From NCBI RefSeq assembly GCF_030063445.1, contig NZ_JASITD010000003.1, forward strand, positions 124,001 to 188,000: a stretch of 64,000 nucleotides of DNA. The letters are read 5' to 3'. The translations under genes were made by a program, and so were the position numbers. Below are positions 7,277 through 27,324 of this stretch, piece by piece. The notes under the pieces are model-generated. The model was given only the letters and a program-made list of their open reading frames with translations, was not told the DNA's origin and ran no database searches. Every line of letters starts with the position of its first letter. Position 1 is the stretch's first letter. Source of the stretch: Hymenobacter sp. H14-R3. GTDB taxonomy: Bacteria > Bacteroidota > Bacteroidia > Cytophagales > Hymenobacteraceae.

Positions 7277-8653
7277 ATGAAAACATCCGGCTATTACCAC
7301 ATCTGGCTTATTGGACCCGACAGTCACTACGTCACGCGGCTGTGTCACCGGCTTAGTATGAACCCCGACCACTTGGTGCGGCGCTTTACTACGGTGGCGC
7401 TGGCGCTGGCCTACCGCTCGGCGGCCACGGCTATGCCCAACGCGCTCATTCTGGACGGCGACGGTCCGGAGGGCCTGCCGCGCCGCCTCGTGCGCAAGCT
7501 GAGCGAGCGCCTGCCCACGGCCCATTGCTTTGTGCTAGCCAGTGAGCCCGACGCCGAGATGGAGGAAGAGCTGCTTAGCCAGGGCATCGACCACTACTTA
7601 TTAAAGGACCTGGGCAGCCCCGAGCGTATTTGGGAGGCGCTGGCCGCCGCCCGGCAGCCCACGGCCGGGGCCTCGCCCGCGCCCCATGCGCAGGAGGCCC
7701 CGGCCGGCATGCTGCTGGGCCAGCACGCCAGCATGCACCAGGTGCGCGAGCTTATTGCCAAGGCCGCCCGCACCACCATCACGGTATCGGTGAGCGGCGA
7801 AACGGGCACCGGCAAAGAACTGGTGGCGCAGGCCATTCATGCGCAGTCGGGCCGGGCCGGGCAGCCCTTTGTGGCGCTCAACATGGCGGCTATTCCGCGC
7901 GAGCTGCTGGAGAGCGAGCTATTTGGCCACGAGAAAGGGGCTTTTACCGGGGCCTCGGCCCGGCGCATTGGCCGCTTTGAGGAAGCCAACGGCGGCACGC
8001 TGTTTCTGGATGAGATTGCCGACCTCGAACTGGTGCTGCAAGCCAAGCTGCTGCGCGTGCTGCAAGAGCGCGCCGTGACGCGGGTGGGCGGCAGCCAGCC
8101 GGTGCCCTTCGACGTGCGCCTGGTGGTAGCCACGCACCGCAACCTGGCCGCCGAGGTAGAGGCCGGCCGTTTCCGCGAGGACCTGTACTACCGCCTGCTG
8201 GGCCTGCCCATTGAATTGCCCCCGCTGCGCAACCGAGGCTGCGACATTCTGCTGCTGGCCCAGGAGTTTGCCTGCACCTTCAGCCAGTTCAACAAGCTGC
8301 CCGCGCGGGCCTTTAGCACCGAGGCGCGCCAGCGCCTGCTGGGCTATGCCTACCCCGGCAACGTGCGCGAGCTCAAGGCCGTGGTAGAACTGGCCACCGT
8401 GCTGGCCGACGGCGAGCACATTGAAGCCTGCGATATTCCCTTCCGCACGGCTCCGGCTGCGCGCGCGGCCGACCCGGCGGCGGGCGGCCGCTCCACGCTC
8501 ACGTTTCCGTCGCTGCGCGAGCAAACCATTGCCATTATGCAGGACAGCCTCTCGGCGCTGAACGGCGACGTAGTAGCCGCCGCCAACCGCCTGCGCGTGG
8601 GCCGCTCTACGCTGTACCGACTCATTCAGAGCGGGCATTTGCAGTTGCCGTAG
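7277..8653 (+). CDS. Sigma-54-dependent response regulator (receiver-AAA+-Fis)
   Basis: 458 residues in NtrC-like order. Residues 1-125 are a receiver-like domain: the candidate phospho-acceptor Asp60 (ALILD) and Lys110 (HYLLKD) are present, but the usual N-terminal acidic pair is reduced to IGPDS, so phosphorylation may be weak or absent. The AAA+ domain (about 145-375) has Walker A GETGTGKE (174-181), the sigma-54-contacting GAFTGA loop (221-226) and Walker B TLFLDEI (241-247). The C-terminus (about 430-458) is a Fis-type helix-turn-helix (AAANRLRVGRSTLYRLI). It should activate RpoN-dependent promoters; rpoN itself lies at 57.2 kb. No histidine kinase is adjacent, so it is an orphan. Confidence 0.92.
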   Translation: MKTSGYYHIWLIGPDSHYVTRLCHRLSMNPDHLVRRFTTVALALAYRSAATAMPNALILDGDGPEGLPRRLVRKLSERLPTAHCFVLASEPDAEMEEELLSQGIDHYLLKDLGSPERIWEALAAARQPTAGASPAPHAQEAPAGMLLGQHASMHQVRELIAKAARTTITVSVSGETGTGKELVAQAIHAQSGRAGQPFVALNMAAIPRELLESELFGHEKGAFTGASARRIGRFEEANGGTLFLDEIADLELVLQAKLLRVLQERAVTRVGGSQPVPFDVRLVVATHRNLAAEVEAGRFREDLYYRLLGLPIELPPLRNRGCDILLLAQEFACTFSQFNKLPARAFSTEARQRLLGYAYPGNVRELKAVVELATVLADGEHIEACDIPFRTAPAARAADPAAGGRSTLTFPSLREQTIAIMQDSLSALNGDVVAAANRLRVGRSTLYRLIQSGHLQLP

Positions 8654-8971: not shown

Positions 8972-9352
8972 CTAGCGAATAACGAGCTTGCACAGCTGGC
9001 TGGCGTTGTCGGCCTCCAGCTTTACGTAGTAGAGGCCATTGGCAAAGCGGCTGAGGTCCAGCGTTTTGGTGTAGCGCTCGTTGAGTTCCGTGAGGGTTTC
9101 GCGGTACATCACCGTGCCGATGACGTTGATAATGCTCACATCTACCTTCCGGCCTTCGAGGCCACTGATGGTAAAATGTACAATTCCGGTGCTGGGGTTG
9201 GGGTACACCACCAGCGTTTTATCATCGAGGGTAGGGCGGGTAACGGTTTGGTGCGCGCCAATTGGCGGTGCGGCCTGGGCCTGGGTGGCCTGCCCTAGGC
9301 ACAGGCCCAGACTCGTAACACACAGTAAGACAAAAAGTAGGGGTTTTTTCAT
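8972..9352 (-). CDS. Mini type IX secreted protein (mostly sorting domain)
   Basis: A 126-residue protein with a signal peptide (KKPLLFVLLCVTSLGLCLGQATQAQA), about 20 linker residues, then a complete type A T9SS C-terminal sorting domain: VVYPNPSTGIVHF, VDVSIINVIGTVMYRE, LDLSRFANGLYYVKLEA. There is almost no cargo between signal and sorting domain. Such minimal proteins may be processed peptides, decoys or remnants of a larger protein. It is divergent from the flavin oxidoreductase gene; the 139-bp gap between them shows no exact TAnnTTTG. Confidence 0.85.
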   Translation of the reverse strand: MKKPLLFVLLCVTSLGLCLGQATQAQAAPPIGAHQTVTRPTLDDKTLVVYPNPSTGIVHFTISGLEGRKVDVSIINVIGTVMYRETLTELNERYTKTLDLSRFANGLYYVKLEADNASQLCKLVIR

Positions 9353-9491: not shown

Positions 9492-10643
9492 GTGGCTTTA
9501 CCCGATAACTCTCTTATTCACAGCCCCGCGGCCCTGGTGCTGGGCGGCGGCCTGGCGGGCCTGGCGGCCGCCCTTGACCTGGCCGGGCGCGGCCACCGCG
9601 TGGTGGTGGTGGAGCGCCGCCGCTACCCGTTTCACCGCGTGTGCGGCGAGTACGTAAGCAACGAGGTGCTGCCCTACCTGCGCCGGCTGGGGGCCGACCC
9701 GGCGGCGCTGGCCCCGGCGGCCATTGGGCGGTTTGGGCTGTCGTCGCCGGGCGGGCGCGTGCTAAGTAGCGCGCTCGACCTGGGCGGCTTCGGCGTGAGC
9801 CGTTACCAGCTCGACGATTATTTATACCAAAAATCTGTTGCCCAGGGAGTTGAATTTATTTTTGCCACCGTGGCCGACGTGGGGTTCGATATCGCCGCCG
9901 ACCAGCACCAGGTAACCCTGGCCGATGGCCGCCAGCTGGGGGCGCGCCTGGTACTGGGCACCTATGGCAAGCGCGCGGCCCTGGACCGGCAACTGGGCCG
10001 GCCGTTTTTCAACCAGCGCTCGCCCTACCTCGGCGTGAAACACCACCTGCGCCTGCCCGGCTTTGCGCGCGATATCATTGAGCTGCACAACTTTAAGGAC
10101 GGCTACGCGGGTATTTCGGCCATTGAAGGCGACAAGCTGTGCTTTTGCTATCTCACCACCCGCGCCAATCTCAAGGCGGGCGGCGGCACCATTGCGGCCC
10201 TGGAGGGCGAGGTGCTGGCCCGCAACCCGCGCCTGGCCGACATTCTGGGCCACGCCGAGCGCCTGTATGCCCAGCCCGAGGTTATCAACGAGATTTCCTT
10301 CGCCCCCAAGCAGCCCGTGGAGCAGCACCTGCTGATGGTGGGCGACGCGGCCGGCCTCATCACGCCGCTGTGTGGCAACGGCATGGCCATGGCCCTGCAC
10401 GGGGCCGCGCTGGCCGCGCCGCTGGCCAGCCGCTTCTTGCGCGGCGAGCTGCCCCGCCCGGCCCTGGAAGCGGCCTATGCCCGGGCCTGGCAGCAGCAGT
10501 TTGGCACGCGGCTGCGGGTGGGGCGGGCGGTGCAGGGCCTGTTTGGCGGGCCAGTGCTGAGCGAGCTGGTGGTGGGCGGCCTGCGCTACTGGCCCGCCGC
10601 CGTGCGCGCCCTGATGCGCCAAACCCACGGCACCGAATTTTAA
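9492..10643 (+). CDS. FAD-dependent oxidoreductase of the type III polyketide locus
   Basis: 383 residues from a GTG start. The FAD-binding Rossmann motif is VLGGGLAGLAAALDLAGRG (Gly18-Gly23) with acidic ERR at the end of strand 2. The C-terminal flavin contact is LMVGDAAGLITPLCGNGMAMAL. The fold is that of geranylgeranyl-reductase or aromatic-hydroxylase-like flavoproteins; HRVCGEYVS near residue 50 is typical of the reductase-like subgroup. It precedes the type III polyketide synthase on the same strand and likely oxidises or hydroxylates its product. The substrate is inferred only. Confidence 0.85.
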   Translation: MALPDNSLIHSPAALVLGGGLAGLAAALDLAGRGHRVVVVERRRYPFHRVCGEYVSNEVLPYLRRLGADPAALAPAAIGRFGLSSPGGRVLSSALDLGGFGVSRYQLDDYLYQKSVAQGVEFIFATVADVGFDIAADQHQVTLADGRQLGARLVLGTYGKRAALDRQLGRPFFNQRSPYLGVKHHLRLPGFARDIIELHNFKDGYAGISAIEGDKLCFCYLTTRANLKAGGGTIAALEGEVLARNPRLADILGHAERLYAQPEVINEISFAPKQPVEQHLLMVGDAAGLITPLCGNGMAMALHGAALAAPLASRFLRGELPRPALEAAYARAWQQQFGTRLRVGRAVQGLFGGPVLSELVVGGLRYWPAAVRALMRQTHGTEF

Positions 10644-10847
10644 GCTGATTATAAGGAGGCTTCTTAGTGCGTCAATTTAGTATGAATCAATGAATTATCT
10701 GGACAGCATTCCACTACCCGGAATAAAAGCTCCGGAAAATCGGCCAGAAACTTGCTCCCCGCCGCCAAACCAGCCGCCATTACGTAACTAGCAGCCCGCG
10801 GCCCACTGGCCCACCTCCCGATTTCTACCTCATAACTACCAGACGCA

Positions 10848-11957
10848 ATGCCCAGCTACCTGGGTGCCATCGGCACCGCTACTCCTGCCCACCGCTTAGC
10901 CCAGCCCACCATTGCCGGTTTCATGGCCGGGGCGCTGGAACTGGACGCGGCCGGCACGCGCAAGCTGGGGGCACTGTACCGGGTATCGGGCATTGCGCAC
11001 CGGCACTCGGTGCTGGCCGATTATGGCCGCGAACACGGTGACTACGAGTTCTTTCCGAATACGCCGGGCCTGGAGCCGTTCCCGAGCGTGAGCCAGCGCA
11101 TGGCCGCCTACCGGCGCGAAGCCCTGCCCCTGGCCCTGGCCGCCGTGCAAGACTCGCTGCGCCAGGCGCCCGATGTGGCGCCGGGCAGTCTCACGCACCT
11201 CATCACGGTGAGCTGCACGGGCATGTACGCGCCGGGGCTGGATATTGAACTGGTAACTACTTTAGGATTAAATACTTCCATACGCCGCACCTGCGTCAAT
11301 TTTATGGGCTGCTACGCGGCCGTGAATGCCCTGCGCCTGGCCGACAGCCTGGTGCGGGCCGACCCCGCCGCCCGGGTGCTGGTGGTGAGCGTGGAACTGT
11401 GCACCCTGCACTTCCAAAAAAGCCACGAGCCCGACCACCTGGTGAGCAACGCGCTTTTTGGCGATGGCGCGGCGGCCTGCCTGGTGTTGGGGCAGCCGCT
11501 GCCCGGCCGCAGCCTGGCGCTGCGCGCCTTCCACTGCGGCCTCGCGCCCGAGGGCACCAAAGACATGGCCTGGCACATCGGCGACTTTGGCTTCGAGATG
11601 ACGCTCTCGGGCTACGTGCCGGCGCTTATTCAGGGCGGCATCGGGCAGTTGCTGAACGAGCTGCTGCAAGACTTGCCGGTGCGCCGCGAAGACATCCGGC
11701 ACTTTGCGCTGCACCCCGGCGGGCGCAAAATACTGGAAGCCATTGAGAAAGCCTTACAGCTGAGCAAAGACGACAACCGCTACGCCTACCAGGTGCTGCG
11801 CGACTACGGCAATATGTCGTCGACCACGGTACTCTTTGTGCTGCGCGAACTGCTGGCCGACACCACCCCCGCCGACGCGGGCGCACCGGTGCTCAGCTGC
11901 GCCTTCGGGCCGGGGCTGACCATGGAGGCGATGCTGCTGGAGGTAGTGGCGGAGTAA
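10848..11957 (+). CDS. Type III polyketide synthase (chalcone/stilbene synthase family)
   Basis: 369 residues. The Cys-His-Asn triad is visible: Cys123 in TVSCTGMYAPG, His289 in FALHPGGRK and Asn322 in DYGNMSSTT. The C-terminal CoA/active-site loop CAFGPGLTMEAM is intact. The enzyme condenses an acyl starter with malonyl-CoA units to make alkyl-pyrones, resorcinols or similar phenolics in the cytoplasm. The 204 bp upstream show only a short purine-rich AAGGAGG-like stretch just after the oxidoreductase gene. A methyltransferase of the kind usually found with this pair lies 6.7 kb downstream on the other strand. Confidence 0.93.
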   Translation: MPSYLGAIGTATPAHRLAQPTIAGFMAGALELDAAGTRKLGALYRVSGIAHRHSVLADYGREHGDYEFFPNTPGLEPFPSVSQRMAAYRREALPLALAAVQDSLRQAPDVAPGSLTHLITVSCTGMYAPGLDIELVTTLGLNTSIRRTCVNFMGCYAAVNALRLADSLVRADPAARVLVVSVELCTLHFQKSHEPDHLVSNALFGDGAAACLVLGQPLPGRSLALRAFHCGLAPEGTKDMAWHIGDFGFEMTLSGYVPALIQGGIGQLLNELLQDLPVRREDIRHFALHPGGRKILEAIEKALQLSKDDNRYAYQVLRDYGNMSSTTVLFVLRELLADTTPADAGAPVLSCAFGPGLTMEAMLLEVVAE

Positions 11958-12015
11958 GTTTTTACGCGTTGGGAACGACCGCTGCCAGCACGTAATTTTA
12001 ATAACATCAGTACCC

Positions 12016-13245
12016 TTATTCGGGGCAGCCAACCGGCTTCGCGTTTAGCAGGTCCGGCACCGAAACCAGCTCTACATCGGTGAACGTGCGCAGGTAGGCT
12101 TCCAAAAAGGGTTTGTGAGCCGCCCCAACGATTAGCAGGGCCCGGCCGCCCGGCACCGGGGCTGTGGCCTCCCGCATGGCCACGGCCATGCGCAGGTTCT
12201 GGGCTTCCCAGGCAGCAACCTGCTGCCGGCCAACGCGGCCCATTTTCTCACTCCGAAGCATTGAAAACCACTGGGCATCAGCGTCTAGCTCCGCAAAGCG
12301 CGGCGAATTTTTCCACTTCAGCACGGGCATGACTTCGGCGGCGGTGGCCATCTTCATAGCTTCCTCCGGCACCGCGTGAAAAGTGGGCGTGTTGTGGTTG
12401 AATAAGTCCACCTGGCTGGGCTCCGCGGCAACCGCGGCCTTCAGCGCAGCAAAGTCCGGCTGGGTTACGTCGCTCAGATGGTCCCCGGCTCCATACACCC
12501 GCTCCAGGCCCAGGTCTGCCGCCAGACGAGCGGCCATCGAGGACATTTCATTGCGCAGACTGGCCCAAAGGTGGAGCTGTTTGGCCAGTGCGGGGGAAAC
12601 ACCATCGGCCCCCACGCGTTCGGCCACCGGCAAACGCAGCCATTGAACGGTTGCGGACAACGGTTCGGCCGCCGCCACGAACAGGCCCGCCAGGTGCCGT
12701 CGTTCCGCTGGGGTCAAGGCGCCTTTTTTGAAAAGCTCGTTGGCCTGCACGAGTGCCTGGGCCGCCGTCAGGTGCAGGGCGGCTTGGGCGGTTTTTGCCA
12801 TCTCCAGGGTCGGGCCCGCGTACTGGCTCGCCGTGCCATGGTAGGCCGCGTACGCATCAAGGCCCATAACTTGCTCCCCCGACATGGCCTCCGTCAAAAT
12901 AATATCCGGCTGATAGGCACGCAGGCGACACAGAACCGGTTCGAGCCAAGCAAGCTGAAAAGTAGCCGGCGCAGTGTCGAGGTGGCCGAGGCCAAAAACC
13001 ATCACTTTGGTTGGCGCAATGGCTAGTTTTTGCTTGGCCGCCGCCGGGTCAAACGGGTGTTGGGCACTGCTGCCGGGTAGTTGTTGAGTAGAAGAAATGC
13101 TCGTTTGAGTTGCTTTACAAGCCGCCAACGCTAACAGCAGCCCAACTAATAGTCCGCCCACGATAGCTTCTTTACTGAATAAGTGCCGGCCTGAATTGGC
13201 TGCATGGGCAGCTGAGGAAGAGGACTTTTTACGAAAGAAAGACAT
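12016..13245 (-). CDS. Membrane-anchored TraB/ChaN-like (DUF5694-like) protein
   Basis: 409 residues. A basic N-terminus and hydrophobic helix (AIVGGLLVGLLLALAAC) end in a lipobox-like LAAC near residue 43, so it is likely a lipoprotein. The domain begins with KVMVFGLGHLD (Gly-x-x-His) and ends with RALLIVGAAHKPFLEAYL (Gly-x-x-His). These paired motifs, with a conserved PDIILTEAM strand, are characteristic of the TraB/Tiki/ChaN/EreA-like hydrolase superfamily; I think DUF5694 is the nearest family. The substrate is unknown. It opens the accessory segment that separates the polyketide synthase from the methyltransferase. Confidence 0.7.
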   Translation of the reverse strand: MSFFRKKSSSSAAHAANSGRHLFSKEAIVGGLLVGLLLALAACKATQTSISSTQQLPGSSAQHPFDPAAAKQKLAIAPTKVMVFGLGHLDTAPATFQLAWLEPVLCRLRAYQPDIILTEAMSGEQVMGLDAYAAYHGTASQYAGPTLEMAKTAQAALHLTAAQALVQANELFKKGALTPAERRHLAGLFVAAAEPLSATVQWLRLPVAERVGADGVSPALAKQLHLWASLRNEMSSMAARLAADLGLERVYGAGDHLSDVTQPDFAALKAAVAAEPSQVDLFNHNTPTFHAVPEEAMKMATAAEVMPVLKWKNSPRFAELDADAQWFSMLRSEKMGRVGRQQVAAWEAQNLRMAVAMREATAPVPGGRALLIVGAAHKPFLEAYLRTFTDVELVSVPDLLNAKPVGCPE

Positions 13246-13672
13246 CAGTACGTAGTCTAGTTGGTGCAGCCAGCGATAGGCTTCAAATATGCCACCAATA
13301 AAAGCTACCTCAAAAAACAGGAGTTGAAATGGAGAAGTGTGACGCCGGCCATAGCCCGCGCTGGGAGGCCAAAACCGTCCTCAATTCACTGGCAGCTTAC
13401 TAGTATAGAAAACTTATAGTAGTCTTTAGGTTGGCGTACGAGGCGGGCTGCTGGTTTTTCGCCAGCTGTCCGCTCTTCGTTCACGTCGCTTGCTCCTTCA
13501 AAGAGCGGACAGCCGGCCCAACCCCGGCAGCCCGCCCCGTACGCATCCAGTACACCAGGCTAGTTTATTCATAAAAATTTGACTATCAGTTAGTTAAAAT
13601 AAAGAATCGGCGAGCGCGGGGCCAGTTAGTGGCCACCGGTGCTCCCTGGCTACTCTGTGCTGGCCCGGCGGG
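13246..13672. other. Non-coding gap with a large imperfect hairpin
   Basis: No credible gene is seen in this 427-bp region. Its main content is the palindromic element at 13434-13544 described separately; the remainder shows no promoter or terminator signature that I recognise. Confidence 0.5.
13434..13544. repeat. Palindromic element, about 110 bp
   Basis: Outer arms 13434-13454 and 13524-13544 pair at 19 of 21 positions (GCGTACG-GGCGGGCTGC core). Inner arms CTGTCCGCTCTT (13466-13477) and AAGAGCGGACAG (13501-13512) pair perfectly. The nested arrangement would fold into a long interrupted hairpin, resembling a non-autonomous palindromic repeat rather than a simple terminator, as there is no T tract. 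Confidence 0.75.
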
Positions 13673-14152
13673 CTAGTTGTCCATGCGGGCCTTTTCGGCT
13701 TCGATGCCGGTGTCGCGGCGCGGGCTGGCTTTCACATTTCTATTGCCAAACTTGTAGCTGAAGTTCAGGCGCACGAAGCGGCTTTCGGCCTTGTTCACGG
13801 TGTAGGAGTTGAGGCCGGCGGCCAGCACATCGGCGCGGCGCTGCTGGGTGTTGAGGAGGTCGGAAACGTTGAGCGTGAGCGTGCCCTGGTTGTGCAGCAC
13901 CGATTTCGACACCCCCACGCTGCTGCTGAAGCTGGAGCGGATGGCCCGCCCGCCGAAGGTCATGGGCGACATATACATGGCCGACACCTCGGCCCGGAAG
14001 CCCTGGGGCAGCACCAGCGTGTGGTTGCTGGAGGGGAAGGCGGCGGGCCGGGCGGCGCTGAGGCCGGCGTTCACGGTGCCCGTGTTCACTGTGGCATAGG
14101 TTACGCCTAAGATGTTCATGGTCTGCCACTTATCATTCAGCAACGGCTTCAT
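13673..14152 (-). pseudogene. Truncated outer-membrane beta-barrel (TonB-receptor-like) C-terminal fragment
   Basis: Up to 159 residues remain, containing the last strands of a large barrel: GFRAEVSAMYMSPMTFGGRAIRSSF, SKSVLHNQGTLTLNVSDLLNTQQRR and the terminal FVRLNFSYKFGNRNVK. This is the usual end of 'outer membrane beta-barrel family' (TonB-dependent-receptor-like) proteins of 700-900 residues. The plug and most of the barrel are missing; upstream sequence switches to a histidine-kinase remnant on the other strand at about 14165. There is no export signal, so the fragment is probably dead. Confidence 0.75.
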
Positions 14153-14165
14153 TAGGGTCAGGGTG

Positions 14166-14575
14166 GGGTTGAGCTCGTTGACGTTTCTCGAAAACTACTT
14201 TGAGATGAAGCAGCGTAAGCACGCCGGGGCCAGCAGCACCTTCGTGGCCGGGGGCGCCGAGCTGGCCGGGCTGCACGTGCCGCCGCCGCTGCCACTGGTC
14301 GAGAACAGCTTCAAGCACGGCCGCCACCATTTCAGCGAAGCGGCCAGCGTGGTGGCTACCCTCACGGCCGGGCCGGGCACGCTGCACTTCACTATCGAAA
14401 ACGACATGCTGCCCGTACCGCCGCCCGCCACGCCGCCGCCCGCAGCAGCGGCATCGGCCTCCACAATATCCGCCGGTGGCTGCACCTCTACTACCCCGGC
14501 CGGCACGCGCTGCGGCTCTCGGAGCACGGCGGCCGCTACCGCGCCGAGCTTACTTTGCACCTCCTGCCGCACTAG
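14166..14575 (+). pseudogene. Broken LytS-type sensor histidine kinase remnant
   Basis: The frame reads FLENYFEMKQRKH and then PLPLVENSFKHG, the phosphotransfer-helix and N-box signatures of LytS/His_kinase-family sensors. The continuation GIGLHNIRRWLHLYYPGRH...YRAELTLHLLPH-stop, which is the end of the ATPase domain, is in a different frame starting at 14450. A frameshift therefore lies between about 14430 and 14450. All membrane and N-terminal regions are missing. It is followed immediately by a LytTR remnant, so an entire two-component operon has decayed here. Confidence 0.8.
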
Positions 14576-14615
14576 CCGCGCCAGCGCGGCTCCCCGCTTC
14601 CCTCTATCTACCCCC

Positions 14616-14975
14616 ATGCGCGGCCTGCTGAAGGTGCCGCACCGCGCCATCAGCTACGTGGAGGGCTGCAAAGACTACGTGAAGGTGGTAACGACCGCCA
14701 AAACCTACCTGCACCACGCCACCCTAAAGGAAATGGCCGAGCTGCTGGGCGCGCCCTTCGTGCGGGTGCACCGCTCGTTCATCGTGGGGGCGGCCCACAT
14801 CAAGCTGCTCCAGCCCGAGCAGCTGGTGCTGGCCGACAACACGGCCATCCCGTTGGGCCTGTCCTACAAGGCCGAGGTGGGCGCGTATTTCAAGAAGGGA
14901 GGGCCGGAAGGGAGGCGGGTAATTTCTTCTCAACCATCTACTTACGCTATATTATGCAGCCTATCAATACGTTGA
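14616..14975 (+). pseudogene. LytTR response-regulator remnant (DNA-binding domain only)
   Basis: From the ATG at 14616 the frame reads a LytTR DNA-binding domain: ISYVEGCKDYVKVVTTAKTY, LKEMAELLG, FVRVHRSFIVGAAHIK and DNTAIPLGLSYKAEV. The receiver domain that should precede it is gone: the kinase end lies only 41 bp upstream. The last 20 or so codons run into the next gene's start. It might still be translated as a stand-alone LytTR protein of 119 aa, but the setting suggests decay. Confidence 0.7.
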
Positions 14976-16258
14976 GAAGATACTTTCGCCAGTCGGCCAG
15001 GCTTGGTACGGGGCGGGCCTACCTCCTGGCGCGGGATAATCCCGACGTCGATTTCTCGGCGGCTATCATCGAAGTCGCGCTCAAAAACTTTGCCTACGAC
15101 GGGCAGGCCGAGGGCAGCCGGGCGCAGTACGTGTTTGCCCTCTACGGCCTGTCGAAGCACCAGGCCCGCATTCGCCGCGCCGTACTCGCGGGCCTGGCCA
15201 CCGAGCACGACGATACCTGGACGCTGCAGCAGCTGTTTGAGCTGGCGCTGCTGTTTGCCCAGCACGGCGATGCCCCGGCCCGCCAGGCCATGTACCACCG
15301 CTTTTTGCGCAAGCCAATTCACGGTTCCGACTGGGTAGGCGCGCGTGAGCTGATGGCCCTCGATGGCCTGGCGGGGCTGCGGTACGTGGCGCAGAAATTT
15401 GGCCGCGCCCTGGCCAAAAACCCCGATGACTGGCAGGATGACCACCTCATTAAGTCTTTTCAAGAGGATAACCCGACCCTCGATGCCTGGGCCGACCTGC
15501 GCCACGCGGCGCAGCACGACGACAACGTGCGCCGCTACCTGCACAACGTAGAGGCCACGCGGGCCCGGCAAGAAGCCTACCAGCGGCCGGCCCGCGAGCT
15601 CCCCGGCAGGCAAGAGATGATTGAGGTGCCCCGGCAACGGGCGCTGCCTTTTTTATTCAGGAAAAAATTACAACCCACTGACCTCGAGTATTTTGCAAAA
15701 CGGCTGCTGACCGAGAAAAGCAAGGCAGTTATAGAGAATATCCTGTTCGTTTTCGGCGAGTTCAAGTACCCGCTTGACTACCGGCTCATCTTGGAGCTGG
15801 CCCGGCAGCAAGCGCGCAGCCGCTACCGGCTGGCCGAGTTTGCCACCGCTGCCCTCCAGCACCTTAGCGCCCCCGAGATAAGGGCTTTTGCGTTGCAAAA
15901 GCTAGCCACTACCACCCGGCCCAGCCAGTATACCGACTTGTTAATCAGTAACTACCAGACTGGTGATGCTGGCTTGCTCACGGCCATTGTGCAGCGCTCC
16001 CACCACGAGCACACGCTCGAACAACTGGCTTGTAGCTACGTGGCTATTTATGAGGCTACCAAAACGCCCGAGTGCGCGCCCCCCCTGCTGGCCCTGTACC
16101 ACAAGATGACGTGCGGCATTCACCGCAGTGAGGTAGTGCGGCTGTTGCTCGAAAACCAGGTGCTGCCCATCTGGCTAAACGAGGAGCTGCCCTTCGATAG
16201 CTCCGCAGAAACGCAGCTGCTGCACCAGCCCACAGGCAAAGCGGCCAGTGCGCATTGA
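14954..16258 (+). CDS. Hypothetical helical-repeat protein (434 aa)
   Basis: A soluble protein with no signal peptide. It is rich in short amphipathic helices (AQYVFALYGLSKHQARIRRAVLAGLATEH; LEYFAKRLLTEKSKAVIENILFVFGEF; LAEFATAALQHLSAPEIRAFALQKLA) arranged like HEAT/Armadillo-type repeats in the second half. It starts at an ATG overlapping the LytTR remnant by 22 bp. No family is recognised. It lies within the accessory segment between the polyketide synthase and the methyltransferase, and it could be a cargo gene of whatever inserted there. Confidence 0.7.
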   Translation: MQPINTLRRYFRQSARLGTGRAYLLARDNPDVDFSAAIIEVALKNFAYDGQAEGSRAQYVFALYGLSKHQARIRRAVLAGLATEHDDTWTLQQLFELALLFAQHGDAPARQAMYHRFLRKPIHGSDWVGARELMALDGLAGLRYVAQKFGRALAKNPDDWQDDHLIKSFQEDNPTLDAWADLRHAAQHDDNVRRYLHNVEATRARQEAYQRPARELPGRQEMIEVPRQRALPFLFRKKLQPTDLEYFAKRLLTEKSKAVIENILFVFGEFKYPLDYRLILELARQQARSRYRLAEFATAALQHLSAPEIRAFALQKLATTTRPSQYTDLLISNYQTGDAGLLTAIVQRSHHEHTLEQLACSYVAIYEATKTPECAPPLLALYHKMTCGIHRSEVVRLLLENQVLPIWLNEELPFDSSAETQLLHQPTGKAASAH

Positions 16259-16339
16259 GATGGTTCTCAGGCCAAGGCACAACTTCTATTGGGGCAGGCT
16301 GCTGGCTCACCGAGCGCACGAGTGGCGCCCGCCGCCACC

Positions 16340-16429
16340 CTCGCCCAGGCCGGCGCGCCTGTGCTGAGCTGCGCCGCCGGGCCGCGCCGCACGATGGCGG
16401 CCCGGCTGCTGGAAGTGGCACTGGGCTTA
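16340..16429 (+). pseudogene. Relic of a type III polyketide synthase C-terminus
   Basis: The frame reads QAGAPVLSCAAGPRRTMAARLLEVALG. It matches the last 25 residues of the intact synthase at 10848-11957 (GAPVLSCAFGPGLTMEAMLLEVVAE) at about 17 positions, and the DNA is visibly similar too. The GFGPG-type loop is damaged (GPRR). No upstream part of a synthase is present in any frame. It appears to be the leftover end of a second or displaced copy. Confidence 0.65.
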
Positions 16430-16491
16430 GGGCAATTGCTTATCTTGCCGGTAATTAGCGCGACACGCACTGCTGATTTCATGCTTAGACT

Positions 16492-17217
16492 ATGAAGATA
16501 CTTCTCCGCCTTGGGGTTACGGTTTTAGCTTTGGCCGGGGTGCGGGTGCCGGCGGGCGCGCAGGCCGTGGCACCGGGCCACACGCGCACGGTGGTGCTCA
16601 AGCTTTCGCCCATTGACCTGCTCATTCCGCACAACGCCAAGCTGTGGCTCGGGGCCGAAGTGAAGCTGGCTCCCCGCCTGAGCTGGCAAACGGACCTGGG
16701 CTACATCTTTCGTAGCGATGCGCTGTTTGATTTATCCAGCGAATTTCCCGACCTGGCTTTTCGAACCACGGACCGGAGCCGGCTCAACGTGGGCATTAAA
16801 ACCGAACTGCGCCGCTACTGGGGGCGCGACAAGGGCCTGAACGGGTTTTACGGGGCCGCGCAGCTTTACTACAAGCAGGTCTACTTTAACAGCAATACCG
16901 CGCCCGGCTACGACTGGCATCGGTACCAAAGCAGCATCGGCCTTGTGCCGCTGGGTAGCTTCTGGCAGGCCGACCGCCGCGGCCCGGAAACCAACTACCA
17001 CATCAGGGACCAGGAGGCGGGCCTCAACCTCAAAGTTGGCTACCAGCACATTTTCAACCGCTTGGCCCTGGACCTGTTTTTGGGCGTGGGTCTCAACAAT
17101 GAGCGGCAGCGCCAAGACCTGGGCGAGCCCATCCCCAACCCAAAGGTGAACTATGGGGGTAGTGGCTTGTGGCTGCCGCTGCCCGTGGCAGGGGGCAAGC
17201 TGGGCTACGCTTTCTAG
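16492..17217 (+). CDS. Predicted outer-membrane beta-barrel protein (241 aa)
   Basis: A signal peptide (ILLRLGVTVLALAGVRVPAGAQA) is followed by alternating strands: VVLKLSPIDLLIPHNAKLWLGAEVKL, RLSWQTDLGYIF, RLNVGIKTELRRYW, GFYGAAQLYYKQVYF, LNLKVGYQHIFNRLALDLFLGVGL. It ends in an aromatic residue (KLGYAF), as integral outer-membrane proteins do. It resembles DUF3575-like small barrels of Bacteroidota. The role is unknown. Confidence 0.75.
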   Translation: MKILLRLGVTVLALAGVRVPAGAQAVAPGHTRTVVLKLSPIDLLIPHNAKLWLGAEVKLAPRLSWQTDLGYIFRSDALFDLSSEFPDLAFRTTDRSRLNVGIKTELRRYWGRDKGLNGFYGAAQLYYKQVYFNSNTAPGYDWHRYQSSIGLVPLGSFWQADRRGPETNYHIRDQEAGLNLKVGYQHIFNRLALDLFLGVGLNNERQRQDLGEPIPNPKVNYGGSGLWLPLPVAGGKLGYAF

Positions 17218-17643
17218 AACAAGATTTTGCGCTGTATACCAGCTTATTAAGGCTTTTTAGCGCCTGGTTGGCGGTAGGGTTGCCAGGCTGCGCCAGCCAT
17301 CTACCCCAGCAAATTGCGCCAGGCGCTAGCTGCGGCCGGCTCCATTACCACCTGCTGTTAGGCAGCGCCTTCGGGTAAGCGCCGCCGGGAGAGCAGCGCA
17401 GACTTTGCGAGTTCGCGCTGCCCGCTGCTGCGTAAGCGCAGTTGCTGCCTGCCACCAAAACGCCCACCGCAGCTCGTGCTGCCCGCCTAAGGCTAGCTTT
17501 TCAGGTACGGGAAAGAGCCATTTGCAGTACGTTACAAAGGTTCGTCTTCTACAACGGGCGGATTTACACGCTAAGCTCTCCGGCAGAACTTTATCAGCGG
17601 GATACCCTGCCTGGCCACGCGCGAGGTTGCCCGTGGGAAGCAA
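17218..17643. other. Non-coding gap, possibly decayed coding DNA
   Basis: A 426-bp stretch without a supported gene. GC-rich coding-like texture with short open frames in several phases suggests degraded coding sequence; one frame contains FVFYNGRIYTLSSP near 17550, reminiscent of amidohydrolase N-termini but too short to call. Confidence 0.4.
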
Positions 17644-18162
17644 TCAGGGGTGCACATCTGTAAACACGCCGGCAACAAACGCACTCCTGGGGGAAGTAGC
17701 GGTAGCAGGGTATTCGCCGCCAAACGTGCCGGAAAAGCCGCCGGTGCTGGTCGTTTTCAGGGTGAGGTTGACCCCGAGAGTGTAATTGGTATAAGCCGAG
17801 CCGGTGGCGGGGTTGTGCCGGAGCACGTCGATACCGGGGCTGGGCAGCGGCCGAAAGGCAGCGTCGGATTCGGGGAGGAACTTGATGAAAGAGAGGCTGA
17901 ACAGGAGTGGGCTGGCGGTTGAAGCCGTCGTGCTGGTGCACGTAATGGTCAGCAGTTCCGCCGGGTGGTCGCCAGTGGCGTCGAGTAGGTGGTAAGCGGG
18001 GTTGCGAATGGCTTTGGCCGTGCCCGTGGCGGGGCGCCCGTCCAACGTGTAAGAGCAGGTGTTGGGTGCTGGAGCAGGCGCAGGAATGTCTTTGTGCGAG
18101 CAGGCCCAGGTGCTGATTGCTAGCGCCAAGAGCGAGGGATAGCGCAAACGAGTAGTAAACAT
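17644..18162 (-). CDS. Hypothetical lipoprotein (172 aa)
   Basis: The signal peptide YPSLLALAISTWAC places the lipid-modified cysteine at about residue 21, followed by SHKDIPAPAPAP. The mature part begins CSYTLDGRPATGTAKAIRN and has beta-rich segments (AELLTITCTSTT, LLFSLSFIKFLP, YTLGVNLTLKTTSTGGFSGTFGGEY), like small Ig-like or lipocalin-like Bacteroidota lipoproteins. GGFSGTFGGEYPA resembles the DUF6252-type 'hypothetical lipoprotein' ending. No function is assigned. Confidence 0.7.
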   Translation of the reverse strand: MFTTRLRYPSLLALAISTWACSHKDIPAPAPAPNTCSYTLDGRPATGTAKAIRNPAYHLLDATGDHPAELLTITCTSTTASTASPLLFSLSFIKFLPESDAAFRPLPSPGIDVLRHNPATGSAYTNYTLGVNLTLKTTSTGGFSGTFGGEYPATATSPRSAFVAGVFTDVHP

Positions 18163-18614
18163 GCGCAGCGGAGGGCTAGAAAAGGATTGACAAACTGGGC
18201 GTTGTGAAACGGGGACTAGCGCGTGAGAAAGCTGAGAGTATCAGGCGGGACGAGGCAGGGTGGTAGTTTGCGGTAGCTGGTTGCAATTTAAAGGGCAAAG
18301 CCGAATCAGTTGGTCCAATAACGCTTCGGTAACGCGAGCATTTCTTATAAGAAAAATGCCACGCCAGGCAGCTCACTTAGCGCGGGTTTCAGGTTAGTGT
18401 ACATTTTTTAACTGAATTAAAAATCTGAATGTCAAATTTTTAATTCTTCATTTTTAATTCATTATATCAAGTATAAATGTGCTTTAGGTAAGCCAAAAGT
18501 CGCCCTTATTTCAAGACTCGTCCTGCAAGCAGGATTATGTTAGCAGACCTGCGCAGTTGTAGAAACCGCGCCTCCAACTACCAGCTGCAAATGACGGGGA
18601 AATTACCCGCCACC
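18163..18614. other. AT-rich intergenic region
   Basis: 452 bp between the lipoprotein and methyltransferase genes (both on the minus strand). Bases 18405-18475 are very AT-rich with repeated TTTTTAATTC words, the same low-complexity word found at 2969-3003. No gene is supported. Confidence 0.5.
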
Positions 18615-19331
18615 TCACCCAGCCTTTTCCCTGAAAACAATCACCTGCCAGCGAAACGCCCAGCGCCAGCGCAGCTCATAGTTCGTGATGCCCGCCTGGG
18701 TTAGCAGGCGCTGCCAGTCGGCCCGCGAAAAGGCGCGGGCTACCGAGAGCGGCGCGTCGTTTTGCACCAGGCGCGAGCCCCCGAATAGCCTGGTTAGCAG
18801 CTTGATACTATAGTAGGCCAGCGGGTGGCGGTGCAGGTCATTGATAACCACGGCCACTTGCGCCTGTTGGTGCCAGCGGCGTAGCAATTCTACCAGCTCA
18901 GCGTCGGTGAAGTGGTGGCAGAAGAGGCTGGCCGTGAGCACGTCGTAGGGCTGGGCAGCAAATTCGGGCGAGAAAATATCGACCTGGCGGTAGCTGATTT
19001 CAGGGTAGGCCGCGCTTTTGGCGGCGGCATAGCTGAGCATGAATTCGTTGGCGTCGATGCCCGTGAGCGCTACGGGCTGGCGCTGGCGGCGGGCCCAGCC
19101 GGCAATGTGGCGCAGGGTGTCGCCGCCGCCGCTGCCCAGGTCGGCCAGGCGCAGGGGGCGGCCCGGCGGGAAGCGGGGCCGCAGGCAGGCCAGCGCGTGC
19201 AGCACCGGCTGGTAGCCACCCAGCCAGGTGTTGATGGTTTCCAGCTCGTCCAGGTTTTGCCGCAGCTCGTCGGTGGCCAGAGTGAGGTCGTCCATCAGCT
19301 CGGGGGTGGTGGCGCGGGTCGCAAAATTCAT
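18615..19331 (-). CDS. Class I SAM-dependent methyltransferase
   Basis: 238 residues. Motif I is RLADLGSGGGDTL (about 61-73), followed by LTGIDANEF (acidic residue contacting SAM ribose), QVDIF and the post-motif block DVLTASLFCHHFTDAELV. The N-terminus ELMDD...LDELETINTWLGGY is characteristic of the methyltransferase found with type III polyketide synthase and FAD oxidoreductase in Bacteroidota. It therefore probably O- or C-methylates the polyketide product. Here it is separated from those genes by 6.7 kb and inverted relative to them. Confidence 0.85.
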   Translation of the reverse strand: MNFATRATTPELMDDLTLATDELRQNLDELETINTWLGGYQPVLHALACLRPRFPPGRPLRLADLGSGGGDTLRHIAGWARRQRQPVALTGIDANEFMLSYAAAKSAAYPEISYRQVDIFSPEFAAQPYDVLTASLFCHHFTDAELVELLRRWHQQAQVAVVINDLHRHPLAYYSIKLLTRLFGGSRLVQNDAPLSVARAFSRADWQRLLTQAGITNYELRWRWAFRWQVIVFREKAG

Positions 19332-19414
19332 GTGGGCAAAGGTGCGAACGGAAACCGTAGCGGACTTATTATCACTAAAGAGATAAAGATTAGCAGATTA
19401 TCAGGAACGCCGAC

Positions 19415-19422
19415 TATCTTTG
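19415..19422 (+). promoter_or_regulatory. Bacteroidota -7 promoter element (TATCTTTG)
   Basis: Exact match to TAnnTTTG, 29 bp before the GTG chosen for the NHL-repeat gene. It supports that start and excludes longer upstream reading into the methyltransferase gene. Confidence 0.65.
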
Positions 19423-19451
19423 AAACACTTACGCGCGCACTTCCCTGCTTG

Positions 19452-20333
19452 GTGAAAACAACTTTACTACTCACTATTCTACTAGCTGCGGGGTTCACGG
19501 CCAGCCGGCCCCCCGCCCCGCCCGCCGTGCCGTTCGGCTATCCCGACGGGGTGGCCGTGGATGCAGCCGGCAACGTGTACGTGGTGGATACCGACAACCA
19601 CGCCGTGCAGAAGGTCAGCCCCACGGGCGAAGTCAAGCTCCTCACCGACAGCGCCCTAACCTACCCTACGGGCATTGCCGTGAGCGCCGCGGGCCTCGTG
19701 TACGTGGCCGATGCCGGCACCCACCGCATCGTGCGCATCAGCCCCGAGGGGCAGGTAACTACCCTGGCCCATAGCCGCAGCCTGGTGTATCCCACGGCCC
19801 TCTGCCTCGACTCGGTGGGCAACCTCTACCTAGCCGATGCCGGGGCCGCGCCCCACAGCGGCACCGTGCAAAAAGTAAGTCTGCGCGGGGCCCTCACCAC
19901 GCTGGCCGCGGGCTTCAACAAGCCCACCGGCATCGCCCTTGCCCCCGGCGGCCTCCTCTACGTAGCTGATACCGAAAATAATACGATAAAGCAGGTGACG
20001 GCCACCGGGCAGGTAACGGTGCTGGCCACCGGCCTCAACCACCCGCGCGGCTTGGCCCTGGAGGCCAGTGGCACGCTGGTAGTGGCTGATACCTACGGCA
20101 ACAGCATCCGGCGCGTGAGCCCCACCACGGGCCAGGTAACGCCACTGGCCGATGGCTTCCGGTTTCCGGCGGGCGTGGCCACCGACCGGGCCGGGGCCGT
20201 GTACGTGAGCGACACGGGCAGCGGCTCGCTGCGCAAAATCAGCCCTGCCGGGCTGGTGTCGACGCTGGCCGGTGGCTCGCCGCCCGTGCCGGCCGCCAGC
20301 ACCGCCGACAGCACCTCCACTACCAAGCAGTAG
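19452..20333 (+). CDS. Secreted NHL-repeat (six-bladed propeller) protein
   Basis: 293 residues from the GTG that begins a signal peptide (KTTLLLTILLAAGFTAS). The open frame continues upstream antisense to the methyltransferase gene, but that part is a shadow. The mature protein is six NHL repeats of about 42 residues with the repeated pattern P(x)GIAV...G-x-VYVADT/DAG...I-x-(R/K)-(V/I)SP-x-G: examples are NVYVVDTDNHAVQKVSP, LVYVADAGTHRIVRISP and LLYVADTENNTIKQV. Such propellers bind proteins or carbohydrates outside the cytoplasm; no catalytic residues are evident. Confidence 0.88.
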   Translation: MKTTLLLTILLAAGFTASRPPAPPAVPFGYPDGVAVDAAGNVYVVDTDNHAVQKVSPTGEVKLLTDSALTYPTGIAVSAAGLVYVADAGTHRIVRISPEGQVTTLAHSRSLVYPTALCLDSVGNLYLADAGAAPHSGTVQKVSLRGALTTLAAGFNKPTGIALAPGGLLYVADTENNTIKQVTATGQVTVLATGLNHPRGLALEASGTLVVADTYGNSIRRVSPTTGQVTPLADGFRFPAGVATDRAGAVYVSDTGSGSLRKISPAGLVSTLAGGSPPVPAASTADSTSTTKQ

Positions 20334-20480: not shown

Positions 20481-21710
20481 TCAAGCCACGTAATCAGCCA
20501 GATACGCGTAGCGGGGCTGCAGCTGCCCGCCTTTAGTAATGGTGGCGCGGGCCAGCACCCCGGTGGCGTCGCCGCCCACGAGAGCCGGAAAAACCTGGTC
20601 AAGCAGCTGCCGGCTGAAGTCGCGGCTGGCGTTGCGGGGCAGCTCGCAGGGCAGGTTGTCCACGGCCATCACGGTGATGGTGCCGGCCGGCGCGTATGCC
20701 TCCGTGAGCTCACCGGTGGCGGGCACGTAGTCGAAGGCGGGCTGCTCGATGGTGGTGCTGCGCTGGGTGAGCGGAATGGAGCCGTTCACGTCGCAGGTAA
20801 CGTCGGCCACAGTATTTATCTTAAAATCAGCTTGTTGCGTATCAACTGCGGTGAAGAGGCGCGGCGCGGCAGGGTCCCAGTAGGCGCAGGCGATGAGCAG
20901 GTCGGTTACGGGCAGGAACTTGCCGAACGTGGACTCGTAAGCGGCCGGCTCGTGGTGAAAATTGGCCGTGTCCCACACCCGGCCGTCGCGGCGGCGGTTG
21001 TAGTCGGAGCTGCGCAATTGGGCAAACACGGGCTCGTTGAAATCGAGGTAGAGGTAGTCGTACACGCTCACCTGCCGGATGCCCATGCGGCCCAGCACTT
21101 CCAGCGCACCCTGCGCCACCCGGCCCGAGCCCGTCACGGCTATCTTGATGGGTGGCAGACGCTTAACCTTGAAAAACTCCTCCTCCATGTCCTCCATATC
21201 CACGCACTGCCAGGCTGGCTTAAGCCGAAACAGGCCGTGCTTGCGGCCGTAGGTGAGCAGGCCGTTGTAGGCCCCCACAATGCCCGCCCAGTGCCCAAAC
21301 GCCACCACGCGCTGGCCGGCCGCGTTGGTCAGCAGCTCGTAGTCAATCAGCGTAATGTTCTCTTTCAGAATGGTTTGCAGCAGCGGGCGGTTGGCGGGCT
21401 GCTTCTTGATGGTGTGCGAGAAAAACAGGTACGTTTTGCCGGGCAGCAGCGCGGCCACGGGCACTTCCTTCACGCCGAGCAGCACGTCGCAAGCGGTCAT
21501 ATCCTCTTCCACTTCCAGGCCCAGGTCCAGGTACTCCTGGTCGGTGAAGGCGCGGTGGGGGCTGGGCTGCACCCGCACGCGCAGGCCGGGGTAGGCATCT
21601 TGCAGCTCGACGCATTTTTTGGGGGTGAGGGCCACGCGGCGGTCGGGTGGGGTACGGCCTTCGCGCAGCAGGCCAATGAGGGTGGGGTGGGGCATGGAAA
21701 TGGGGAGCAT
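20481..21710 (-). CDS. Saccharopine/alanine-dehydrogenase-like NAD(P)-dependent oxidoreductase
   Basis: 409 residues; a second in-frame ATG five codons in (MPHPTLIGLLREGRTPPDRRVALTP) may be the real start. The N-terminal block REGRTPPDRRVALTP, the VLLGVKEVP segment and YLFFSHTIKKQP match the AlaDh/PNT-N and lysine-forming saccharopine dehydrogenase group. The NAD-binding motif is KIAVTGSGRVAQGALEVL, and TVADVTCDVNGSIPLTQR is typical of the Lys1-like C-terminal half. Lysine or related amino-acid metabolism is likely, but the reaction is not certain. Confidence 0.8.
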   Translation of the reverse strand: MLPISMPHPTLIGLLREGRTPPDRRVALTPKKCVELQDAYPGLRVRVQPSPHRAFTDQEYLDLGLEVEEDMTACDVLLGVKEVPVAALLPGKTYLFFSHTIKKQPANRPLLQTILKENITLIDYELLTNAAGQRVVAFGHWAGIVGAYNGLLTYGRKHGLFRLKPAWQCVDMEDMEEEFFKVKRLPPIKIAVTGSGRVAQGALEVLGRMGIRQVSVYDYLYLDFNEPVFAQLRSSDYNRRRDGRVWDTANFHHEPAAYESTFGKFLPVTDLLIACAYWDPAAPRLFTAVDTQQADFKINTVADVTCDVNGSIPLTQRSTTIEQPAFDYVPATGELTEAYAPAGTITVMAVDNLPCELPRNASRDFSRQLLDQVFPALVGGDATGVLARATITKGGQLQPRYAYLADYVA

Positions 21711-21997: not shown

Positions 21998-24925
<2,928 letters not shown>

Positions 24926-24928
24926 GGT

Positions 24929-24991
24929 GTAGCGCGGACTTTTAGTCCGCGAGTAGTACCAACGCACAGGCGGACTGAAAGTCCGCGCTAC
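24929..24991. repeat. Inverted repeat, 22-bp arms (GTAGCGCGGAC unit)
   Basis: 24929-24950 and 24970-24991 pair at 21 of 22 positions. Each arm is itself a small hairpin (GCGGACTTTTAGTCCGC), so the unit is a palindrome of palindromes. It starts just after the gcvP stop codon, a position typical of REP-like elements. Confidence 0.85.
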
Positions 24992-24999
24992 TTTAAAAG

Positions 25000-25042
25000 A
25001 AACGCCCGGTTGCGCACGCGAAAGCGGCGCAGCCGGGCGTTT
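25000..25042 (+). terminator. Terminator-like hairpin after gcvP
   Basis: Stem AAACGCCCGG-T-TGCGC / GCGCA-G-CCGGGCGTTT with an 11-nt loop. The T tract is short, so efficiency is uncertain. Confidence 0.6.
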
Positions 25043-25086
25043 GGCGTGGTGGGCGGTTGGCTAGCGCATTTAGTCGGCTTGCCTAC

Positions 25087-25094
25087 TATTTTTG
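25087..25094 (+). promoter_or_regulatory. -7 promoter element (TATTTTTG)
   Basis: Exact TAnnTTTG match, 74 bp before the DUF4136 lipoprotein gene. Confidence 0.5.
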
Positions 25095-25168
25095 GAACAT
25101 TGGCCAGGCAGGTAGCGTTAGCTACCTACTCCCGAGTACGGGTTTTATTCCGCTAGCTTTCAACTTAT

Positions 25169-25792
25169 ATGAACCGTATCACGCATCTTCTGGCCCGCCC
25201 AACCGCTATGGTTGTCACGAGCCTGGCGCTGTCCTTCGGGCTCGTCTCCTGCGCTACGTCGGCCAACGTCGGCGTGTCGAGCGACTTTGACCACGCGGTC
25301 AATTTCCGCGCCTACAAAACCTGGGCCTGGTACCCCAAGCAGGCCAACGACACTGAGGGCGGCCCGGCCAAGGGCTACGAGTCGTTCACGGACCAGCGCA
25401 TCCGCGATGCCGTAGCTAAAGACCTTACTGCCAAGGGCCTGACCGAAACCACTACCGCGCCCGATGTGTACGTAGCCTATAGCGTGCGCGTCGAAAACAA
25501 GCAGCAGCAGGGCGGCTACGGTGGCTACGGCTACCCCTACGGCTACGGCGGATATGGGGGCTACGGCGGCTACGGCGGCTTCCCCTACGGGGGCGGCGGC
25601 GGCTACAACTACAAAGCCGGCACCGTTATCATCGACATCGTGGATGCCCGCCGCAAGGAGCTCGCCTGGCGTGGCACGGGCCAGGCCCAGCTCAACCAGA
25701 ACAGCATTTCGGAGGAAGAGACCTACCGCATCGTAAACAGCGTGCTGGGCAACTACCCGCCCACCGACCAGCGCCGCCAGGCCGTGCGCTAA
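25169..25792 (+). CDS. DUF4136 family lipoprotein with Gly/Tyr-rich insert
   Basis: 207 residues. The lipobox is GLVSC (Cys28). The DUF4136 pattern follows: VSSDFDHAVNFRAYKTWAWYPK, RIRDAVAKDLTAKGLTE, PDVYVAYSVRVE, then GTVIIDIVDARRKELAWRGTGQAQL and a helical end. Between strands is a low-complexity Gly-Tyr insert of about 35 residues (GGYGGYGYPYGYGG and on), common in this family. It is an envelope lipoprotein of unknown function. It is followed by a strong terminator. Confidence 0.9.
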   Translation: MNRITHLLARPTAMVVTSLALSFGLVSCATSANVGVSSDFDHAVNFRAYKTWAWYPKQANDTEGGPAKGYESFTDQRIRDAVAKDLTAKGLTETTTAPDVYVAYSVRVENKQQQGGYGGYGYPYGYGGYGGYGGYGGFPYGGGGGYNYKAGTVIIDIVDARRKELAWRGTGQAQLNQNSISEEETYRIVNSVLGNYPPTDQRRQAVR

Positions 25793-25815
25793 GCGACTGA
25801 CGACAAGTATATTAC

Positions 25816-25850
25816 GCAAAAAGCCTCGCCAATTTGGCGAGGCTTTTTGC
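25816..25850. terminator. Terminator hairpin between DUF4136 gene and toxin remnant
   Basis: Perfect 15-bp stem (GCAAAAAGCCTCGCC / GGCGAGGCTTTTTGC) with a 5-nt loop. It is bidirectional for the convergent genes. Confidence 0.9.
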
Positions 25851-25854
25851 GTTC

Positions 25855-26130
25855 TTACTGATTTTGCGCTTGGTGCACTACTGTAAAAATCTCAATTTGC
25901 GTACTACCAACATAATATACCAATCGATAGCTGAGGATAAACAGTTCACGCACTGGCTTGAGCTTAACCTCCGGTAATGCCCGCCCCAGGAAAGGCGAAT
26001 CGGCTAACGAGTTGCCGCGGGTAATTAGCGTATCAGCAACTGTTTCAGCCTATTGTGGTGACGTTTGCCCTAGTTGGCCACAAGTGTCCGCTAGCATCTC
26101 AAGCGCGTCGGTCGTCCAGTGGACTTGCAT
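25855..26130 (-). pseudogene. RelE/ParE-type toxin interrupted by an amber stop
   Basis: On the minus strand the frame reads MQVHWTTDALEMLADTCGQLGQTSPQ, then TAG at codon 27 (26050-26052), then AETVADTLITRGNSLADSP, FLGRALPEVKL, VRELFILSYRLVYYV and IEIFTVVHQAQNQ-stop. The 91-codon total, the R-E-L-F-x-x-Y-R-x-x-Y core and the terminal V-x-H are those of ParE/RelE toxins. No frameshift is needed: the single TAG is the only lesion. The antitoxin gene overlaps its start by 32 bp. Either the toxin is dead or the stop is read through; the first is far likelier. Confidence 0.85.
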
Positions 26131-26314
26131 TCGCGGCGCGTAGTTTAGTCAAATAAGCCTTTGCTTGCTCAGCTGGGATAAGACGCCCTTCTTTACTCGC
26201 CTCAATGCCCCGTTCAATTGCCTGCCGCACGTAAATTTCGTAGGCAACATCTTTCCAAGTAGCTTCTCCGGAAAGCTGCTCGGCCAAAGCGTGTACTTGC
26301 TCGCGGATTGACAT
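26099..26314 (-). CDS. Antitoxin of the adjacent ParE/RelE-like locus
   Basis: 71 residues: SIREQVHALAEQLSGEATWKDVAYEIYVRQAIERGIEASKEGRLIPAEQAKAYL. The helical body and the IERGIEASKEGRLIPAEQA segment are typical of small antitoxins paired with ParE/RelE toxins. It overlaps the toxin start by 32 bp, the normal antitoxin-first order, and is intact although its toxin carries a nonsense codon. Confidence 0.75.
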   Translation of the reverse strand: MSIREQVHALAEQLSGEATWKDVAYEIYVRQAIERGIEASKEGRLIPAEQAKAYLTKLRAANASPLDDRRA

Positions 26315-26344
26315 AATGCGCAGGAGTAAGCTGTTGAAAACGAA

Positions 26345-27259: not shown

Positions 27260-27283
27260 CTTTTCTAGTAATAAAAATCAGTT

Positions 27284-27303
27284 GTCATGGCGAGCGCAAT
27301 GAC
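27284..27303. repeat. Solitary half-unit of the 21.7-kb palindrome
   Basis: GTCATGGCGAGCGCAATGAC differs by one base from the perfect palindrome GTCATTGCGAGCGCAATGAC that heads the element at 21723. It lies just upstream of lipA. Confidence 0.65.
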
Positions 27304-27324
27304 ACCTAAAAGCAGCCCTCAAAA

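Follow-up and report, generated by a model that had tools for sequence, protein, structure and literature searches.

The hierridin-like trio and its form in the window

Type III polyketide synthases (T3PKS) accompanied by a methyltransferase and a redox enzyme have been described in cyanobacteria and in planctomycetes. The cyanobacterial hidABC genes, of the hierridin type, encode a methyltransferase, an oxidoreductase and a type III synthase, and they come in two gene orders (PMC8086630). In the planctomycetal mtr-fdo-t3pks operon, the synthase makes alkylresorcinols, and co-expression adds a methyl group (PMC10896814). The picture in these two reports is a common one: the synthase leads to alkylresorcinols, and its partners methylate and oxidise or reduce (PMC10896814, PMC8086630). 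A rearranged member of this kind of trio is found in Hymenobacter sp. H14-R3, in a stretch of 64,000 nucleotides (nt), here called the window, which spans positions 124,001 to 188,000 of contig NZ_JASITD010000003.1 (assembly GCF_030063445.1; C33:124001-188000 of a genome of 5.26 Mb in 90 contigs). It is likely, and we hold this with good confidence, that an ancestral block of three genes was split by a rearrangement common to a whole clade, that the resulting gap was filled later, and that the pathway was kept.

All three genes of the trio lie in one genome neighbourhood of the window, and all are full length. As the original prediction had read from the letters alone, searches against Pfam and NCBIfam place a flavin adenine dinucleotide (FAD)-dependent oxidoreductase (9492-10643), a flavoprotein of the geranylgeranyl-reductase/halogenase-like kind, and the type III synthase (10848-11957) on the plus strand, and the methyltransferase (18615-19331) on the minus strand. 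The trio is therefore not a co-directional, contiguous set: the methyltransferase occupies the strand opposite to the synthase, 6.66 kb away from it. The synthase has both chalcone/stilbene synthase domains, N-terminal (PF00195, 3.3e-28) and C-terminal (PF02797, 9.8e-23), and its best matches among solved type III synthases are 7cb3 (residues 77-367) and pks18 (residues 7-367). In the alignment with 7cb3, the GC of VNFMGCYAA, the HPGG and the GNM motifs are all present, and these we take to hold the catalytic Cys, His and Asn. The methyltransferase belongs to Methyltransf_25 (Pfam); its best NCBIfam match is PRK06202-like, below the cut-off, and no relative of solved structure was found at an expect value (E) of 0.001. 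As for the flavoprotein, its GTG start may have been placed too early, as the matches in most relatives begin only at about residue 25-33.

How are these genes arranged elsewhere? Among the best 80 of 109 confirmed related loci, in which the synthases are 65-88% identical, 69 have all three genes on one strand in the order flavoprotein, synthase, methyltransferase, and the distance from the synthase match to the methyltransferase match is 7-262 nt (median 125). The synteny check thus bears out the earlier proposal that the three genes once lay together. Another seven loci have the methyltransferase on the opposite strand, and in the last four it is absent from the flank; a whole-genome search located it in all four, 17.7 kb downstream of the synthase and flipped in two genomes (G081 and G097), and on a contig other than that of the synthase in the other two (G118 and G105). 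For the genus, the norm of the hierridin-like trio is one co-directional block. The synthase itself is present in 202 of the 204 genomes of the family, and it is matched at E 1e-30 or better in 173 of 395 genomes sampled evenly from the phylum. The 29 best loci of this sample other than the window's own, read with 1.5-kb flanks, include 19 with all three genes on one strand, and the claim that the three enzymes are recurrent partners in Bacteroidota holds. Ten of these 19 trios are ordered flavoprotein-synthase-methyltransferase and nine synthase-methyltransferase-flavoprotein; the remaining loci consist of five with only the synthase and the methyltransferase (two of them weak) and five with the synthase only.

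A flip shared by one clade

In a tree built from the trio and the adjacent regulator, the split genomes, i.e., the window's and those of 16 relatives, form one clade with a support of 1.0, and the window nests inside it together with G116, G117, G114, G094 and G038 (support 0.98). In all 15 of the 17 clade genomes that carry both genes on one contig, the synthase and the methyltransferase face each other. The most telling case is G038, where the genes are flipped, yet only 29 nt separate them. For this reason, the event common to the clade is inversion and not insertion; the proposal that the trio had been split by insertion plus inversion stands in its second part, and it fails where insertion is made the cause. 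The flip came first, and the filling of the gap was later and lineage-specific.

The rearrangement can also be followed on the right side of the locus. Throughout the clade the methyltransferase is followed by an NHL protein, a 409-amino-acid (409-aa) protein and mostly gcvP, the latter being on another contig in G081 and G097. In the window these are the NHL-repeat protein (19392-20333, plus strand, exact start uncertain), the 409-aa protein (20481-21710, minus strand), presumably dehydrogenase-like, and the gcvP-like gene (21998-24925, plus strand), which we take to encode a glycine dehydrogenase. In the outgroups, a gene termed here Z lies a little beyond the methyltransferase, and three of the four gcvP loci read there have a gene termed U beside gcvP and the 409-aa gene. 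The arrangement differs in the window, G094 and G020: the methyltransferase stands with the NHL, 409-aa and gcvP genes, and U and Z are neighbours; in the window they are at 59554-61227 and 61664-62575, both on the minus strand, with Z now 42 kb from the methyltransferase. In two genomes, G049 and G082, synthase and gcvP share their orientation and are separated by about 0.7 Mb.

These arrangements suggest the following course. In the ancestor of the 17-genome clade, a chromosome rearrangement would have broken the block between synthase and methyltransferase, and the methyltransferase would thereby have been reversed and brought next to the NHL, 409-aa and gcvP genes. The interval between the two genes, now tail to tail, would then have become tolerant of gain and loss.

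A gap filled and emptied repeatedly

The 15 clade genomes in which it can be measured differ widely in the distance from synthase to methyltransferase: 29, 823, 1057, 1083, 1088, 1239, 1240 and 1273 nt in the smaller half, and 1393, 1457, 2916, 3319, 6663, 17666 and 17688 nt in the larger, with a median of 1273 nt. The region has six other junctions, with maxima of 417, 245, 564, 279, 177 and 2356 nt; at five of them distances run from 21 to 564 nt, with maxima of 177-564 nt. The contents of the gap vary as well, and include a macro-domain protein, a DUF2625 protein, a PA14 protein and lipoprotein-like frames, which look alike in G114, G116 and G117. Within the clade, the gap has been filled and emptied repeatedly.

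Relatives with an equally wide spacing would have refuted the original prediction, and this objection does not arise, as no relative shares the gap content of the window: its gene set recurs in no other clade gap, and the partial likenesses are one shared gene in G089, which has a homologue (65%) of the 434-aa protein, and a wider, different gap in G081 and G097. In G089 (L119 6632-8982), the 434-aa homologue is interrupted by a DDE transposase gene.

The gap of G081 (L146 1343-18341) and G097 (L158) deserves a mention of its own. Its 17.7 kb carry two SusC/SusD pairs, a GH92 enzyme, GDPD and PI-PLC, which makes it a segment for the use of polysaccharide or phospholipid, set within a polyketide locus. 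That it might be inverted outgroup DNA was considered and rejected on account of its genes (SusC/SusD, GH92, PI-PLC and others); downstream of the outgroup loci there are only distant SusC/SusD-like matches (24-43% identity) to the genes of this gap.

A bolder reading is that the inversion made the operon junction a tail-to-tail insertion hotspot, where genes are gained and shed in nearly every species, with both enzymes remaining under selection. We advance it tentatively, at somewhat less than even chances. If it is true, the pathway has outlived its operon, and the interval would serve as a clock of gene turnover.

What fills the window's gap

The gap of the window (11958-18614) was described in the original prediction as decaying accessory DNA with unrelated or broken genes. 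Two of its frames are clearly broken (13673-14152, minus strand, and 14190-14975, plus strand), and four others are intact by length. The words on unrelated or broken genes are right, but decay is confined to about 1.3 kb and a scrap of a second synthase and does not extend to the rest of the 6.66 kb. The first of the intact frames (12016-13245, minus strand) encodes an accessory DUF5694 protein, present in 15 of the 120 genus genomes including its own and 68-83% identical in the 14 others. The second (14954-16258, plus strand) is that of the 434-aa protein, which has no family match and is found in 17 of the 120 genomes. The third (16492-17217, plus strand) encodes a 241-aa orphan for which no match was found in the other 119 genus genomes, and the fourth (17644-18162, minus strand) a 172-aa protein, lipoprotein-like by its sequence, matched in 15 of the 120 genomes including its own, with a single good match of 67% in one outgroup genome. 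A palindrome with 44-nt arms (13434-13544, no strand) belongs to a dispersed repeat family with 34 match rows in the genome, several of which represent both strands of one place. In the window's own line, the interval thus holds 6.66 kb of mixed DNA, consisting of the four intact genes, the dispersed palindrome, the synthase scrap and a collapsed outer-membrane protein (OMP)-LytS-LytTR relic.

The two broken frames make up this relic. On the minus strand lies the C-terminal remainder of an outer-membrane beta-barrel gene (OMP_b-brl_3 in Pfam; 13673-14190), where 13673-14152 covers only positions 282-408 of the 408-column model; homologues elsewhere are mostly found in open frames of about 820-1000 aa. 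On the plus strand there follow the tail of a LytS and a LytTR domain (14190-14975), frame-shifted and with the receiver domain missing, as seen from Pfam and from an alignment to G059. The whole relic (13673-14975) aligns with 23503-28049 of the stretch read from that genome, and what is missing by comparison amounts to about 2.8 kb, covering the front part of the OMP gene and the greater part of LytS, and about 0.5 kb before LytTR, with a change of frame between.

Where did the relic come from? The OMP gene occurs in 31 of the 120 genomes, the window's relic included. Of the 30 others, 24 lie outside the split clade, with the gene on the synthase contig in 18 and on another contig in six; every one of the 18 same-contig copies lies downstream, on the strand opposite to the synthase, and in 15 cases it is within 13-26 kb. 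This placement, together with the fact that the relic keeps the order and orientation of the module outside the clade, favours the view that the gap is a shrunken ancestral downstream region, in which the relic stayed and the 20 kb before it were lost. Against this, a tree of the C-terminal 159 residues groups the relic with G058, G021 and G059 (0.895), apart from the intact copies that six members of the clade have in other places, four on another contig and two on the same strand at a distance of about 257 kb. Moreover, traces of the relic are missing from all other gaps of the clade, and vertical retention needs several independent losses. The relic may have come from a nivis-type relative or it may be an old leftover; as no sibling gap keeps a trace of it, we lean towards acquisition, and the shrinkage of an ancestral region appears unlikely, although it is the strongest of the alternatives.

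The scrap, overlooked in the original prediction, is an 87-nt piece of the 3' end of a second type III synthase (16334-16420, plus strand), detected in a whole-genome search as 69% identical to synthase residues 339-367 (E 9.2e-4). It forms a direct repeat with the 3' end of the resident synthase, and this layout invites the idea that an element (11958-16333) integrated at the synthase 3' end and duplicated that end, the scrap being its far border. The idea fares poorly: there is no integrase or transposase among the Pfam/NCBIfam families matched in the stretch, the two ends share 76% identity over 85 nt instead of being near-identical, and the window synthase is clade-like to its end. In addition, no synthase scrap was found at E below 0.1 in the 17 other gap-side stretches searched. 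Integration of this kind is accordingly improbable. A donor switch in the window synthase was likewise rejected, since its sequence makes no jump to an outgroup-like form towards the 3' end; the scrap-by-scrap synthase identities of G105, G116, G038, G037 and G118 (about 0.4) are unreliable, presumably an end-offset artefact, and were left unused.

Does the pathway still work?

Another question is whether the methyltransferase still serves the synthase. Its dN/dS values (nonsynonymous to synonymous substitution), taken pairwise, are 0.152, 0.230, 0.165 and 0.214 for the four pairs that include the window; five further split pairs give 0.045-0.205, and four contiguous pairs 0.104-0.156. The gene is still under purifying selection, which may be slightly relaxed. 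That the enzyme has left the pathway and now belongs with the NHL, 409-aa and gcvP genes would agree with the conservation of these neighbours in the clade, but its sequence class, full length and selection are unchanged, and there is a single copy in each of the ten genomes searched (eight of the split clade, the window's included), even where it has moved far; we consider such a change of role very doubtful. The poorest explanation is that the trio was split when accessory DNA inserted in the window's lineage, and that the inversion belonged to this event: the gap is indeed lineage-specific, and the DUF5694 protein and the 241-aa orphan look acquired, but the clade-wide flip, present in G038 almost without a gap, refutes it as to timing and leaves it hardly any probability.

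We thus return to a clade-wide rearrangement of a block whose pathway was probably kept. The three enzymes appear undamaged and seem to be held under purifying selection, and for this reason the pathway probably still works. The synthase would build a ring, probably of the alkylresorcinol type, from an acyl starter and malonyl units, and the methyltransferase and the flavoprotein would decorate it; by analogy with the described trios, the product is most likely a methylated, oxidised alkyl-phenol. The methyltransferase would most likely be expressed as a separate transcription unit.

Several points weigh against this interpretation. With three ancestral adjacencies swapped for three new ones, at least two cut-and-join steps are required, and the U-Z junction was not found in the 60 kb read from G089. 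The clade tree rests only on the trio and the adjacent regulator, and not on a genome-wide set. The dN/dS of the methyltransferase is slightly higher in window pairs than in contiguous pairs. The Bacteroidota -7 promoter motif, TAnnTTTG, shows no enrichment upstream of the methyltransferase where it is flipped (1 of 17, 1.0 expected); where it is contiguous the count is 1 of 23, with 0.6 expected. Finally, the literature examined gives no metabolite for any Hymenobacter trio. One report lists a terpene/T3PKS region without a similar known cluster (PMC11925752), and nothing specific on Hymenobacter type III synthases was found in another (PMC9950430). A split trio in Hymenobacter was not found in the literature search, which is weak evidence of absence.

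Other features of the window

The left flank of the trio is conserved in relatives. It comprises a sigma-54-type regulator gene (7277-8653, plus strand), so labelled from its sequence with no family call and found in the same place in relatives, and a small secreted protein with a C-terminal sorting-like tail (8972-9352, minus strand), also labelled from sequence. Farther to the right, some 13.6 kb (28750-42300) are absent from G094, where the homologues of 28221-28643 and 42340-43041 adjoin; this segment includes a 2207-aa frame as well as five other long ones, and no Pfam family matched any of them.

Comparison with known systems

The locus is a modest evolutionary curiosity, and it also offers a natural experiment: the same enzymes are compact in most of the genus, and one clade has them split, with 29 nt to 17.7 kb in the gap. 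Split and compact strains provide a way to ask whether operon structure matters for a pathway. For genome mining there is a practical side too, in that cluster finders based on adjacency could miss the methyltransferase in part of the clade.

Closest to the window's genes are the contiguous trios of other Hymenobacter and Bacteroidota, which are direct orthologues; there, unlike in the window, the genes share one strand and a short spacing. The likeness to hidABC lies in the same three kinds of enzyme, the comparison with HidA, HidB and HidC having been made by enzyme kind; it differs from the window, where the methyltransferase comes third after flavoprotein and synthase, flipped and at a distance of 6.66 kb. 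The planctomycetal mtr-fdo-t3pks operon again has the same three enzyme kinds, but it is contiguous, its synthase comes last and its product is known from heterologous expression, whereas the product of the window's trio is a predicted one.

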